Program-made: the position numbers and the translations under genes
NCBI GenBank assembly: GCA_902761345.1
Contig: CACWKD010000004.1
Span: 1-47,164 of the forward strand
Reading direction: 5' to 3'
DNA length: 47,164 nucleotides
Source: an uncultured Ruminococcus sp.
Lineage (GTDB): Bacteria; Bacillota; Clostridia; Oscillospirales; Acutalibacteraceae
In this document: positions 18,791-43,128 of the stretch, piece by piece
How the letters are laid out: each line of letters starts with the position of its first letter
Position numbering within the stretch: the stretch's first letter is position 1
The notes under the pieces: model-generated
The model's input: only the letters and a program-made list of their open reading frames with translations
Database searches by the model: none
What the model was told of the DNA's origin: nothing

Positions 18791-18831
18791 AGTATATGAC
18801 GAAAATTATAAAAAAGAGAGAGGGATTTTTT

Positions 18832-20118
18832 ATGAAGAAATTTATTTCGGCTATGCTTTGTGCGGTTTTCTTGCTGCTGCCCTTATCACTTGCAGTGTCG
18901 GCTGAGGAAGAAAAGACAGCGGCGGAAACTGCGGCGGATATTGTACTTGCAAATTCAAGTGAAATTGATAAGATTGTTACAGGTATGTCCCAGACTTATC
19001 AGAGCAGTATTATGTTTCTGGATATTGATGGCGATAACCAACTTGAACTTTTAGTTTATTATGTTGAGGGTACAACTCTTAACGGTGGCTCTACTGCTTA
19101 CGAACTAACTCCGAATGGAGTGGTGAAAATTAATGGAGATAATATGCCTGAATTTCATGTATCAGCAAATGGTGACGAGTGTACGGCTCATTACGAATTA
19201 TATAAAAAGAATAGCGGAGAATTATTCTATATAGTTGATACAGCGGTTTCATCTACATATTCACATCTTTTTGATTCATATCAGAGCTTTTATAAAGTTG
19301 GCGTAGAGGGGAATACTATTAGAACCGAACGGATTTGTTCCAGATATTACGATACTTATACTGACGGATATGATGCTAACGGAAATGTAATTCTTAAATA
19401 TCAAAAGCCTGATTCAGACGGTAACAGTATCGAAATTGACGAGAGTGAGTTCGATAATATTATGGAATCAACTAAATCCGACAGTGAAAATGTCAATGTG
19501 AAAGTATTGGACGCCTTTGAGTATTCAATTATTAATAGGCAATTTGATTACTACAATAGTTATACTATTGCCCAAAAGCGTCAATTCCTCATTGCTTCCT
19601 ACAATGCATTTAGCTATGACGGATTTGTTAGAGATGACAGTAACATTATTCCTCAAAAGCCGTTTGACACAGACCCAATTACAGACACAGACCCAATTAC
19701 AGACACAGACCCAATTACAGACACAGACCCAATTACAGACACAGACCCAATTACAGACACAGATCCAATTATAGACACAGACTCAATTACAGATACGGAT
19801 AAAATTACAGACACAGATCCAATTATAGACACAGACTCAATTACAGATACGGATAAAATTACAGACACAGACACAAATACTGACACCTCAGCAGGTAAAA
19901 CAAATAATAACAACACGAATAACAATAATACGAACACCAATACTAATAAAAACAACACCAACAACACAACCAACACAAATACTGCAAACAATACGTCTGC
20001 TCAAACAGATACCGTATCAACGGGAACACAGACGGGAGTTATTGTGTTTATCACATTAATGGCGGCTTGCATAGCTGTTGTTGCTGTACTTAACAAGAAG
20101 AAAAACGCCGGACAGTAA
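18832..20118 (+). CDS. secreted, membrane-anchored protein with a hexapeptide repeat stalk
   Basis: A 428-residue protein. Signal peptide MKKFISAMLCAVFLLLPLSL... with likely cleavage after VSA; a globular domain of about 250 residues containing an Asp loop (FLDIDGDNQLELLVYY) like the calcium-binding or FG-GAP-like repeats of the 911-residue protein; then about 12 copies of DTDPIT-type hexapeptides; an Asn/Thr-rich stretch; and a C-terminal membrane helix (VIVFITLMAACIAVVAVL) with a KKK stop-transfer. The start at 18832 is favoured by the SD-like GAGAGAGGGA and the signal peptide; an in-frame ATG at 18796 has no SD. It is displayed at the cell surface on a flexible stalk. The family is not recognised. 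Expression is probably under XRE control. Confidence 0.82.
   Translation: MKKFISAMLCAVFLLLPLSLAVSAEEEKTAAETAADIVLANSSEIDKIVTGMSQTYQSSIMFLDIDGDNQLELLVYYVEGTTLNGGSTAYELTPNGVVKINGDNMPEFHVSANGDECTAHYELYKKNSGELFYIVDTAVSSTYSHLFDSYQSFYKVGVEGNTIRTERICSRYYDTYTDGYDANGNVILKYQKPDSDGNSIEIDESEFDNIMESTKSDSENVNVKVLDAFEYSIINRQFDYYNSYTIAQKRQFLIASYNAFSYDGFVRDDSNIIPQKPFDTDPITDTDPITDTDPITDTDPITDTDPITDTDPIIDTDSITDTDKITDTDPIIDTDSITDTDKITDTDTNTDTSAGKTNNNNTNNNNTNTNTNKNNTNNTTNTNTANNTSAQTDTVSTGTQTGVIVFITLMAACIAVVAVLNKKKNAGQ
19665..19886 (+). repeat. 18-bp coding tandem repeat with a 54-bp higher-order duplication
   Basis: About 12 units of the type ACAGACACAGACCCAATT encode DTDPIT. The first five are identical; later units vary (PII, SIT, KIT) and a block of three variant units (54 bp) is itself duplicated. 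Copy number is expected to vary between strains. Confidence 0.95.
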
Positions 20119-20212: not shown

Positions 20213-20276
20213 TGTTGATCAAAACAATTCACCACATAAAAGTGGTAAATTAATAAAATTATTTTTTCGTTTTCTA

Positions 20277-20305
20277 TTGACACGATGAAAAAAATTTGTT
20301 ATACT
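20277..20305 (+). promoter_or_regulatory. promoter of the aromatic attenuator / DAHP synthase
   Basis: TTGACA (20277-20282), 17 bp, TATACT (20300-20305). About 33 bp before the leader peptide ATG. Confidence 0.85.
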
Positions 20306-20337
20306 GAGGTAAAGTAATTAAGAAAGGTGTACGCAAC

Positions 20338-20430
20338 ATGAGTAAGTATATGAACGCTTATAACGCATTTACATACTTTTACTTTAGAAGCTGGGGTTAT
20401 TTTTTCTCCGGTCTGTTTGTCGTGCATTAA
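20338..20430 (+). CDS. aromatic-rich leader peptide of the DAHP synthase gene
   Basis: A 30-codon ORF with SD AAGAAAGG upstream of its ATG. The peptide starts MSKYMNAYNAFTYFYF and has five Tyr, six Phe and one Trp among 30 residues, far above chance. It sits directly in front of a terminator that precedes DAHP synthase, the first enzyme of aromatic amino acid synthesis. This is the design of an attenuation leader: ribosomes that stall at Phe/Tyr codons change the folding of the RNA behind them. The peptide has no other expected function. Seen: ORF, SD, codon bias, position. Inferred: regulation by Phe and/or Tyr supply. Confidence 0.85.
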   Translation: MSKYMNAYNAFTYFYFRSWGYFFSGLFVVH

Positions 20431-20503
20431 CATCAGGATTACTTAAATAAAAATTTTTTAAGCTTATTGACCGATGTTTGCATGACGCAGACATCGTTTT
20501 TTT
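20429..20503 (+). promoter_or_regulatory. transcription attenuator: antiterminator arm and terminator
   Basis: Terminator: CGATGTTTGC (20472-20481) pairs with GCAGACATCG (20487-20496) over 10 bp, followed by seven T (20497-20503). Antiterminator: AACATC-A-GG (20429-20437), overlapping the leader stop codon, can pair with CCGATGTT (20471-20478). A ribosome that finishes the leader covers the first arm, so the terminator forms; a ribosome stalled at Phe/Tyr codons leaves it free, so the gene is read. Confidence 0.8.
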
Positions 20504-20531
20504 GATGCGTAAATTTTTGGAGGAGATTGTT

Positions 20532-21560
20532 ATGAATTGTACATTTAAAAGAAAGCTGCCCATTCCGCAGGTGTTAAAGCAGGAATACCCTGTAACGGAA
20601 GAAATGGCTAAAAGAAAGGTTCAGCGTGACGAGGAGATCAAAAAAATATTTACGGGTGAATCCGATAAGTTTTTGCTTATTATAGGACCGTGTTCTGCCG
20701 ATTACGAGGGTTCGGTTATGGACTACGTTACACGTCTTGCAAAGGTTCAGGAAAAAGTAGCGGATAAGCTGCTTATCATTCCTCGAATATACACAAATAA
20801 GCCCAGAACTACGGGTGCAGGATATAAGGGTATGCTTCATCAGCCTGATCCGCTTACGGACTCCGATATGCTGAAAGGCGTTATCAAAATCAGAAAATTA
20901 CATCTTCGTGTGCTTGCTGAAACGGGTCTTACCAGTGCGGACGAAATGCTTTATCCCGATAACCACAGATACCTTTCCGATCTGCTTTCTTATGTTGCGG
21001 TAGGCGCAAGGTCTGTTGAAAACCAACAGCACAGACTTACTGCAAGCGGTATTGAAGTTCCCGTAGGAATGAAAAACCCCACAGGCGGCGATATAGGCGT
21101 AATGCTTAATTCCGTAATGGCTGCGCAGTCAAGCCATACATTTATATACAGAGGTTGGGAAGTTGAGAGTACGGGCAACCCTCTTGCGCACAGCATACTC
21201 AGAGGCTGGACTAATCCGCAGGGACAGAATATCTCAAATTATCATTATGAGGATCTTTTAAATCTTTATGCAGAGTATCAGAAAAAAGGTTTGGCAAACC
21301 CTGCCGTTATAATTGATACAAACCACGCAAACTCCGGCAAGCAGTACCTTGAGCAGATACGCATAAGCAAGGACGTTATTCACAGTATACATTCAAATGA
21401 GAATATCAAAGGACTTGTAAAGGGACTTATGATAGAAAGTTATATTGAGGACGGCAATCAGAAAGTAGAAGATATGATTTACGGAAAATCTATCACAGAC
21501 CCGTGTTTGGGCTGGGAGAAGTCCGAAAGACTAATTTATGATATAGCGGAGATCCTTTAA
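20532..21560 (+). CDS. aroF: 3-deoxy-7-phosphoheptulonate synthase, class I (AroF/G/H type)
   Basis: A 342-residue enzyme joining PEP and erythrose-4-phosphate to DAHP, the entry to the shikimate pathway. Typical class Ialpha motifs: LLIIGPCSADY, PRIYTNKPRTTGAGYKGMLHQPDP, VGARSVENQQHR, GMKNPTGGDIGVMLNS, DTNHANSGKQ and ESYIEDGNQ. The start ATG at 20532 has SD GGAGGAG; an in-frame ATG upstream lies inside the terminator. It appears monocistronic, behind a leader-peptide attenuator rich in Phe and Tyr codons. Which aromatic amino acid inhibits the enzyme cannot be told reliably from the sequence. Confidence 0.96.
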   Translation: MNCTFKRKLPIPQVLKQEYPVTEEMAKRKVQRDEEIKKIFTGESDKFLLIIGPCSADYEGSVMDYVTRLAKVQEKVADKLLIIPRIYTNKPRTTGAGYKGMLHQPDPLTDSDMLKGVIKIRKLHLRVLAETGLTSADEMLYPDNHRYLSDLLSYVAVGARSVENQQHRLTASGIEVPVGMKNPTGGDIGVMLNSVMAAQSSHTFIYRGWEVESTGNPLAHSILRGWTNPQGQNISNYHYEDLLNLYAEYQKKGLANPAVIIDTNHANSGKQYLEQIRISKDVIHSIHSNENIKGLVKGLMIESYIEDGNQKVEDMIYGKSITDPCLGWEKSERLIYDIAEIL

Positions 21561-21790
21561 AGTGTGGAGTGTGGAGTTTTTGTTAGTTAGGAATTAGGAG
21601 TGAGGAGTTTGGAATGGAGCTGTTAGCTCAAAGTTTATAGTTTAAATTTTTTAGTTCAAAGTTCTAAGTTGTTAGTTGGGCGCTCCTTTGAGCTTTGAAC
21701 TTCAAACTTTGGACTAGCGACTTTGAGTTAACAACTCCAAACTCAAAAAAGCTCCGCACTGACAAATAACAACTAATAACTACAAACTAA
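21557..21790. repeat. dispersed intergenic repeat, long imperfect palindrome
   Basis: Begins AAAGTGTGGAGTGTGGAG and later reads back as AAAAAGCTCCGCACT, so the ends are inverse to each other. Inside are many TCAAAGTTT / GAACTTTGAA words that pair in several ways. Related to the repeat at 16430-16536. No ORF. Confidence 0.6.
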
Positions 21791-21874: not shown

Positions 21875-22010
21875 CGGGTAAGACTTTTTGTAACCGACGG
21901 TAGTGGAGAGTGCTGCGGATTTTTCTGCACGAAAACCACAGGAAGCAAAAAGATAAACATAAGCCGACCGTCTGGGCAGTCCTACTTACAAGGTAGGACT
22001 GTATTTTTTT
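21875..22010 (+). promoter_or_regulatory. ZTP (pfl) riboswitch with terminator
   Basis: The aptamer core runs from 21875 to about 21980: a long P1 formed by ACTTTTTG and CAAAAAG, the internal ACCGACGGTAGTGG and CCACAGGAAGC segments, and the diagnostic CCGTCTGGGCA (21968-21978). The expression platform is a terminator, CAGTCCTAC (21977-21985) / GTAGGACTG (21993-22001) plus seven T (22004-22010), whose 5' arm starts within the conserved GGGCA. ZTP signals shortage of 10-formyl-tetrahydrofolate; binding should prevent the terminator and turn on the purine genes. A second CCGACGGTA copy follows at 22013-22021. Confidence 0.85.
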
Positions 22011-42857: not shown

Positions 42858-43128
42858 AGTCGGAATAATAACCGTTAAATATCGGAAAACGCAATGACGA
42901 AGAAAAGTAGCATTTGTTTTTGCTATACAGAGAGAGCAGACGAGGGCTGAGATCTGCTTTGTGCAAGCAATTGTGAAGTTCGCTTCCGAGCGGCATAGCT
43001 GAAACAGCAGTAGGCTTTGACGGTACGCACCGTTATATGCGGACAGAGTGTTTGCTTTGTGAACAGAATATGGGTGGTACCACGGCATATAGTCGTCCCT
43101 ATGGAGTAATATCCGTAGGGGCTTTTTT
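42858..43128 (+). promoter_or_regulatory. T-box leader (phenylalanyl-tRNA responsive) with terminator
   Basis: The leader has the usual AATGACGAAGAAAAGTAG near the stem I base, the antiterminator T-box motif GGGTGGTACCACGG (43072-43085), and a terminator CCCTATGGA (43097-43105) / TCCGTAGGG (43112-43120) plus six T (43123-43128). Two UUC triplets (42979-42981 and 42984-42986) in the stem I 3' side are specifier candidates and both read Phe, which agrees with the pheS gene downstream. Uncharged tRNA-Phe stabilises the antiterminator and turns on the operon. Confidence 0.95.

Follow-up and report, generated by a model that had tools for sequence, protein, structure and literature searches.

In the 47,164-nucleotide stretch of DNA analyzed here (the window), the DAHP synthase gene aroF of an uncultured Ruminococcus sp. 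is preceded by a short open reading frame (ORF) rich in phenylalanine and tyrosine codons, which raises the question of whether translation of this ORF governs transcription of the gene. In the enterobacterial pheA (pheL) and trp attenuators, a leader peptide is coupled to alternative antiterminator and terminator structures. The initial annotation had proposed the same leader-peptide logic for aroF, and the analysis supports it: the ORF and the arms are conserved, and the arms favor their own partners. Judging from sequence comparison and folding models, the element is very probably a classical ribosome-mediated transcription attenuator that would tune aroF to Phe-tRNA and Tyr-tRNA supply.

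The leader locus and its parts

The locus comprises the following features, all on the forward strand.

20277–20305, +, promoter TTGACA-17-TATACT with a TG 5′ of the -10 element (11 of 12 consensus matches)
20323–20329, +, Shine-Dalgarno (SD) site AAAGGTG for the leader ORF
20338–20430, +, leader peptide ORF MSKYMNAYNAFTYFYFRSWGYFFSGLFVVH with its stop codon, 30 codons (six Phe, five Tyr, one Trp)
20374–20385, +, putative regulatory codons Tyr-Phe-Tyr-Phe (TAC TTT TAC TTT), conserved in relatives
20390–20412, +, hairpin P1 (GCUGGGG/CUCCGGU), a candidate protector or pause hairpin
20411–20437, +, antiterminator 5′ strand (region 2), predicted partner 20471–20492, from folding and cognate preference
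20472–20503, +, intrinsic terminator, stem 20472–20481/20487–20496 followed by seven T
20532–21560, +, aroF, DAHP synthase of 342 aa (NCBIfam aroFGH), the regulated gene in the proposed model

When the sequence was re-read, the coordinates, codon counts, and pairing arms of the initial annotation all proved correct. The promoter, the SD site, and the 30-codon ORF with 11 Phe/Tyr codons and one Trp codon lie where it had placed them; the 10-bp terminator with seven U is there as a stem-loop (20472–20496, loop of 5), and AACATC-A-GG (20429–20437) overlaps the stop codon (20428–20430, inside region 2) and pairs with CC-GATGTT (20471–20478). The antiterminator that it described from these 8 bp does exist, but was drawn too short, as the folded form contains 22 pairs: GUCUGU, GUCGUGCA, AACAUC, and GG (20411–20437) on the 5′ strand face CC, GAUGUU, UGCAUGAC, and GCAGAC (20471–20492) on the other. 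These pairs take up the terminator 5′ arm, its loop, and part of its 3′ arm in the window copy, and both folding and cognate-arm preference indicate that antiterminator and terminator are mutually exclusive. Hairpin P1 was absent from the parts listed earlier. The downstream gene had been called a DAHP synthase, and its protein scores 268.6 bits with NCBIfam aroFGH (3-deoxy-7-phosphoheptulonate synthase; cut-off 173.2); searching the window's own assembly, which is 89% complete, with it yielded a single match. As in a classical attenuator, an SD-preceded ORF rich in codons for the end products of the pathway stands before a DAHP synthase gene, and its stop codon is sited so that a finishing ribosome would block the antiterminator.

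The individual parts exceed what chance would provide. With a cut-off of at least 11 Phe plus Tyr, or at least eight making up a third of the peptide, which was chosen after this ORF had been seen, the leader ORF is the sole passer among the 127 SD-preceded ORFs of 12–45 codons that the two strands of the window contain. Dinucleotide-shuffled windows (n = 40) contained a mean of 0.05 such ORFs and a maximum of one, and shuffling of the intergenic stretch gave rise to such an ORF in 6 of 2000 cases. The terminator (-14.4 kcal/mol, z -5.23) was equaled in stability by none of 200 shuffles, and no shuffle of the middle segment (n = 300) gave an antiterminator duplex as strong as that of the window copy.

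Conservation of codons and RNA arms within the genus

Conservation of the ORF and its pairing arms in close relatives had been named as the check on the attenuator reading, and such conservation was found. Our genus sample comprised 22 genomes, 19 of them with an aroF match and together providing 18 aroF loci with upstream sequence; the leader lies directly 5′ of aroF in 15 of the 18 loci, and in 17 of the 19 genomes once two leaders at contig ends are included. In one of these two (G002) the aroF contig ends 115 bases upstream of the gene, and the leader with a terminator is found at the end of another, overlapping contig; in the other (G021) the leader sits on a contig end that is broken inside the terminator, with a partial aroF on a separate contig. 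Upstream sequence of aroF was inspected in G012 (L015) and G015 (L017) and contains no leader, and in the former, where the contig holds 210 bases upstream, promoter-like sequence stands directly 5′ of the aroF ribosome site. The order of promoter-like site, SD, aromatic ORF, P1, antiterminator, terminator, and aroF is conserved across the genus, with promoter-like sequences upstream of the leader and AAGG or GAGG 5′ of its start codon in the relatives, both judged by eye. With an E limit of 1, a model built from these leaders (R1) has matches in 20 of the 22 genomes; of eight stretches retrieved from the weak places, the two that were examined (L112 and L113) are both leaders.

The 15 full leaders encode peptides of 30–37 residues with 7–11 Phe plus Tyr, and all 15 keep the core Y-(F/Y)-Y-F; in the two leaders at contig ends, YFYY and YYYF stand in its place. 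This aromatic core survives TAC/TAT changes and Phe/Tyr swaps while the remaining peptide drifts, as exemplified by MSNHMNFTYSYFYFRNWGYYYSGRFVVHQTSLG and MTQTYKYTFAYFYFDPSFYTGPVCVRRASE, and the C-terminal half varies in both frame and length among relatives. Trp was considered as a further conserved signal and rejected, being present in 8 of the 15 full leaders and 9 of 17 when those at contig ends are included. The Trp codon UGG is part of the P1 5′ arm, and four of the seven leaders without Trp carry CCG there, such that the hairpin is kept without the residue.

P1 lies immediately 3′ of the core codons in all 17 sequences, and is weak in L013. Its arms favor their own partner, a pairing that only 92 of 20000 permutations equaled (339 after dereplication), and in P1 and the terminator together 12 of 22 pairs have changed on both sides in the 17-sequence alignment. 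The arms of the antiterminator behave similarly: cognate arms pair with a mean of -25.06 kcal/mol vs -22.02 kcal/mol for swapped ones (n = 15; 6 of 20000 permutations as good), and nine dereplicated leaders give -24.69 vs -20.56 kcal/mol (15 of 20000). When the antiterminator duplex was compared on its own with shuffles at the 5% level, 10 of the 15 leaders passed and five failed (shuffles as strong, of 300: L003, 23; L007, 18; L009, 64; L011, 56; L013, 130). Covariation in the 17-sequence alignment, which was fitted to model R1, was matched in none of 500 shuffles on four of five measures and in 16 of 500 on the fifth, and the signal was lost when the pairing partners were slid; in a plain MAFFT alignment of 12 leaders, covariation was not clearly above shuffles. 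The check on the arms is thus positive for own-partner preference and for covariation on the R1-fitted alignment, but not clear on the plain one. The terminator stem has 10 pairs in the window and 13 in its nearest relatives (L002–L004), that of L002 (genome G004) being three pairs longer than the window's.

A segment reading GUCGUGC, GUCGCGC, or GUCAUGC is retained among the leaders, and three of them (L012, L013, and L018) use another reading frame over it than the window does; because it is kept despite this difference in frame, we regard it as an RNA element. Such strong conservation at the RNA level is also what a tRNA- or ligand-binding switch, i.e., a T-box or riboswitch over which the ORF is incidental, would predict. 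This explanation is very improbable, as the aromatic core is kept through synonymous changes and Phe/Tyr swaps while other residues drift, and as the leader reached the gathering score of no Rfam family, including the T-box family (RF00230), for which 20250–20560 was also searched. At E up to 5 the leader yielded only a partial rli117 match of 10 bits; the genome contains six T-box matches, none of them at the aroF leader, and an Rfam 15 search over 14 related loci returned six matches, none at the leaders. TRAP-type leaders too can have alternative terminator and antiterminator structures, so that part of the same picture would arise if TRAP or another RNA-binding protein caused the attenuation and the codons played no role. 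We consider this the least probable of the explanations weighed here: GAG/UAG triplets number only four in 20312–20531 and are irregularly spaced, judged by the site rule for TRAP, and the conserved aromatic codons hold a fixed place 5′ of P1.

Ribosome position and the predicted switch

To relate ribosome position to terminator formation, leaders were folded at equilibrium with the RNA hidden up to 13 nt beyond the start of the A-site codon, a treatment in which the order of transcription is not included. While the first core Tyr occupies the A site, the mean terminator probability (n = 15) is 0.80. It falls to 0.50 at the final core position and to 0.40 three codons further, and is back at 0.82 after five, so that a valley of 0.40–0.50 begins at the last Phe of the core and extends over about four more codons. 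With the stop codon in the A site the mean is 0.98 (0.93–1.00 in all 15 leaders). Setting the footprint edge to 10 or 16 nt moves the valley by one codon. The valley depends on the middle segment: its mean is 0.454, vs 0.963 with this segment shuffled, and the lowest shuffled set gave 0.892. Leader by leader, a valley as low occurred in at most 1 of 60 shuffles for 13 of 15, the exceptions being L003 (3 of 60) and L013 (13 of 60). The decrease between the first core Tyr and the valley was equaled in at most 1 of 60 for 12 of 15, being unremarkable in the window copy (28 of 60), L013 (55 of 60), and L014 (51 of 60).

Five leaders deviate from the mean folding pattern, the window's own among them. 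L003, L004, L008, and L013 have a shallow valley or none (shallow in L004 and L008). With no ribosome present, termination is predicted for 13 of the 15 leaders (probability of at least 0.75) and, in part, for L014 (0.63); the window copy has a terminator probability of 0.00. For the window copy, read-through is predicted at every ribosome position up to codon 23, and the effect of P1 that is visible in most relatives does not appear.

The placement of the mean valley, at and just 3′ of the aromatic core, also bears on a rival account, in which the ORF encodes a small protein that has a function and a terminator of its own, and aroF behind it is expressed independently. The conservation of the ORF and its SD site would suit such a protein, and there is precedent for a leader peptide acting in trans in peTrpL (PMC7298713). 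Nevertheless, the C-terminal half of the peptide shifts frame and length among relatives, and the arms that would disrupt the terminator favor their own partners; together with the position of the valley, these observations make an independent small protein a highly unlikely account.

The ribosome-mediated attenuator would operate as follows. When charged Phe-tRNA (and Tyr-tRNA) is scarce, a ribosome would stall at the YFYF codons and cover the P1 5′ arm, leaving region 2 (20411–20437) free to pair with 20471–20492; in the proposed model, no terminator would therefore form and aroF would be transcribed. With a good supply, the ribosome would reach the stop codon within region 2 and block it, allowing the terminator to form. 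In the absence of a ribosome, the folding model suggests that P1 holds part of region 2 in most relatives, leading to termination. The window copy has the shorter terminator, and for it the model gives read-through unless a ribosome passes codon 23.

This is the leader-antiterminator-terminator logic of the enterobacterial pheA and trp attenuators, from which the window leader differs in the genes governed, in having no Rfam match, and in that its antiterminator pairs with the terminator 5′ arm, the loop, and part of the 3′ arm. Those enterobacterial systems are named in PMC11802643, which, together with PMC4046766, reports work by Neshat et al. (2014) on a parallel with the same kind of gene: in C. 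glutamicum the leader aroR precedes the DAHP synthase gene aroF, carries Phe-Tyr-Phe, and raises transcription on stalling. The likeness, drawn from description, lies in a Phe-Tyr-Phe-type leader peptide before a DAHP synthase gene; C. glutamicum belongs to a different phylum, and Tyr supply is reported there to have no effect. The uORFC-13-1 motif from Acholeplasma and environmental sequences (24 examples, attenuation proposed; PMC8632094) likewise combines, by description, a uORF with at least one Phe codon and a terminator, and occurs exclusively before aroF. Leader-peptide attenuators have also been predicted for his genes in the B. cereus group, some Eubacteriales, and Erysipelotrichales (PMC9413887) and described for ilv genes in S. 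aureus and L. monocytogenes (PMC6123439); they share ribosome-mediated attenuation with the proposed mode of action of our element, but use His or branched-chain codons and genes rather than aromatic ones. Given the ilv, his, and Acholeplasma aroF precedents, the initial annotation's view that such control is unusual for a Firmicute is weaker than stated. The mechanism itself is textbook knowledge. The aroF leader, in its conserved genus form, has no Rfam 15 match, and no description of it was found among the papers listed by searches of open-licence PubMed Central.

Aromatic leaders beyond the genus

Aromatic leaders of other types occur outside the genus. The genus leader was rejected as an order-wide family, as R1, run on 300 family genomes with an E limit of 0.05, matches 11, namely four genus members and seven weak matches outside the genus (ORFs were read in one, L104). 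In a same-family sample of 150 genomes, 60 have an aroF match, 58 of them outside the genus; among 28 inspected aroF genomes outside the genus, a Phe/Tyr leader by our own criteria is present in four and absent in 24.

A public-genome scan for aroF, covering the best 80 of 529 confirmed matches, provided 69 loci outside the genus, two of which have fewer than 300 bases upstream. Eight of these 69 carry a different aromatic leader (e.g., MFTSKFFYYFYYFAKGCPSFVKSEV), seven identified by motif and one (L068) by eye, with arms that resemble GGGCUGCCCG and CGGACAGUCC; in L081 two such second-type leaders stand in tandem before one aroF (L081:2109–2457). Among the same best 80 of 529, L070 and L088 have still other Phe-rich leaders, and L036 has a T-box-like motif by regular expression. 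A script also flagged aromatic ORFs at L036 and L058, which we ascribed to chance.

Run on 394 genomes of the order with an E limit of 0.01, model R2, built from nine second-type sequences, matches 21. An aromatic leader ORF is present at all 21 places (19 by script, two by eye), a result that is partly built into the model. The identity of the downstream gene is not built in, and the genes 3′ of these places encode DAHP synthase (6), chorismate mutase-prephenate dehydratase (7), and an aminotransferase (8); for the fifteen non-DAHP genes, ten proteins were checked, and five were assigned from the N terminus. At class level R2 matched 6 of 391 genomes: one was already known, three are new and have leaders, and two (L152 and L153) were set aside for want of a second-type aromatic leader. 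The second-type arms were located in 31 of 33 sequences (20 distinct pairs), and the observed pairing was reached in 1 of 1000 swap shuffles in a test that picked the best-pairing site in each sequence. The presence of these leaders before aroF, chorismate mutase-prephenate dehydratase, and aminotransferase genes suggests a Phe/Tyr attenuator regulon.

A third model, R3, matches 6 of 300 family genomes: four belong to the genus, and the remaining two (L154 and L155), which share a different genus, are apparently real. In these two, MTVSCAKKNYFFYFTLSFFFSWGFFAAKKYAVS is the leader, and the gene after it encodes a DAHP synthase of the other, B. subtilis-like kind, assigned by NF006421 and TIGR01361 for L154 and by its N terminus for L155. 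The modeled terminator probability of L154 is low around the aromatic codons, and this leader has a ten-base antiterminator match (AUGCUGUGAG/CUCAUAGCAU). In the window's own genome, a script search found no leader before pheA, which comes after genes read by eye as aroA and aroC.

The T-box for pheST that the initial annotation had reported in the same segment is present at 42885–43103 (129 bits), separate from the aroF leader and before pheS (43190) and pheT (44210); it belongs to the six T-box matches of the genome, four of which are above cut-off. Taking these observations together, we lean toward a reading in which a minority of genomes of this Clostridia order run the Phe/Tyr pathway as a leader-peptide attenuator regulon, with genus-specific and order-wide cassettes upstream of genes for chorismate mutase-prephenate dehydratase, an aminotransferase, and DAHP synthases of both kinds; in the window genome, a pheST T-box accompanies them. 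Within this reading the window copy would be "on" by default, because its antiterminator includes both terminator arms, and a finishing ribosome would turn it off. Clostridia, usually seen as T-box territory for amino acid genes, gain a well-supported aromatic leader-peptide switch, and sequence models derived from these leaders find further ones before several genes of one pathway. One genome segment also offers a natural comparison of two ways of sensing phenylalanine, ribosome stalling at aroF and a T-box at pheST.

Other elements of the window may be recorded here. A 440-aa ORF at 18796–20118 has C-terminal Thr, Asp, and Asn repeats and a terminal hydrophobic stretch, and gave no Pfam match at E 1e-8. 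Behind aroF, a ZMP/ZTP riboswitch aptamer (21880–21984) precedes genes for AIR carboxylase (22051) and SAICAR synthetase (22574). Between aroF and this aptamer lies an imperfect inverted repeat (21615–21739) with 54-nt arms that are 78% complementary and 17 nt apart, perhaps the remnant of a mobile element.
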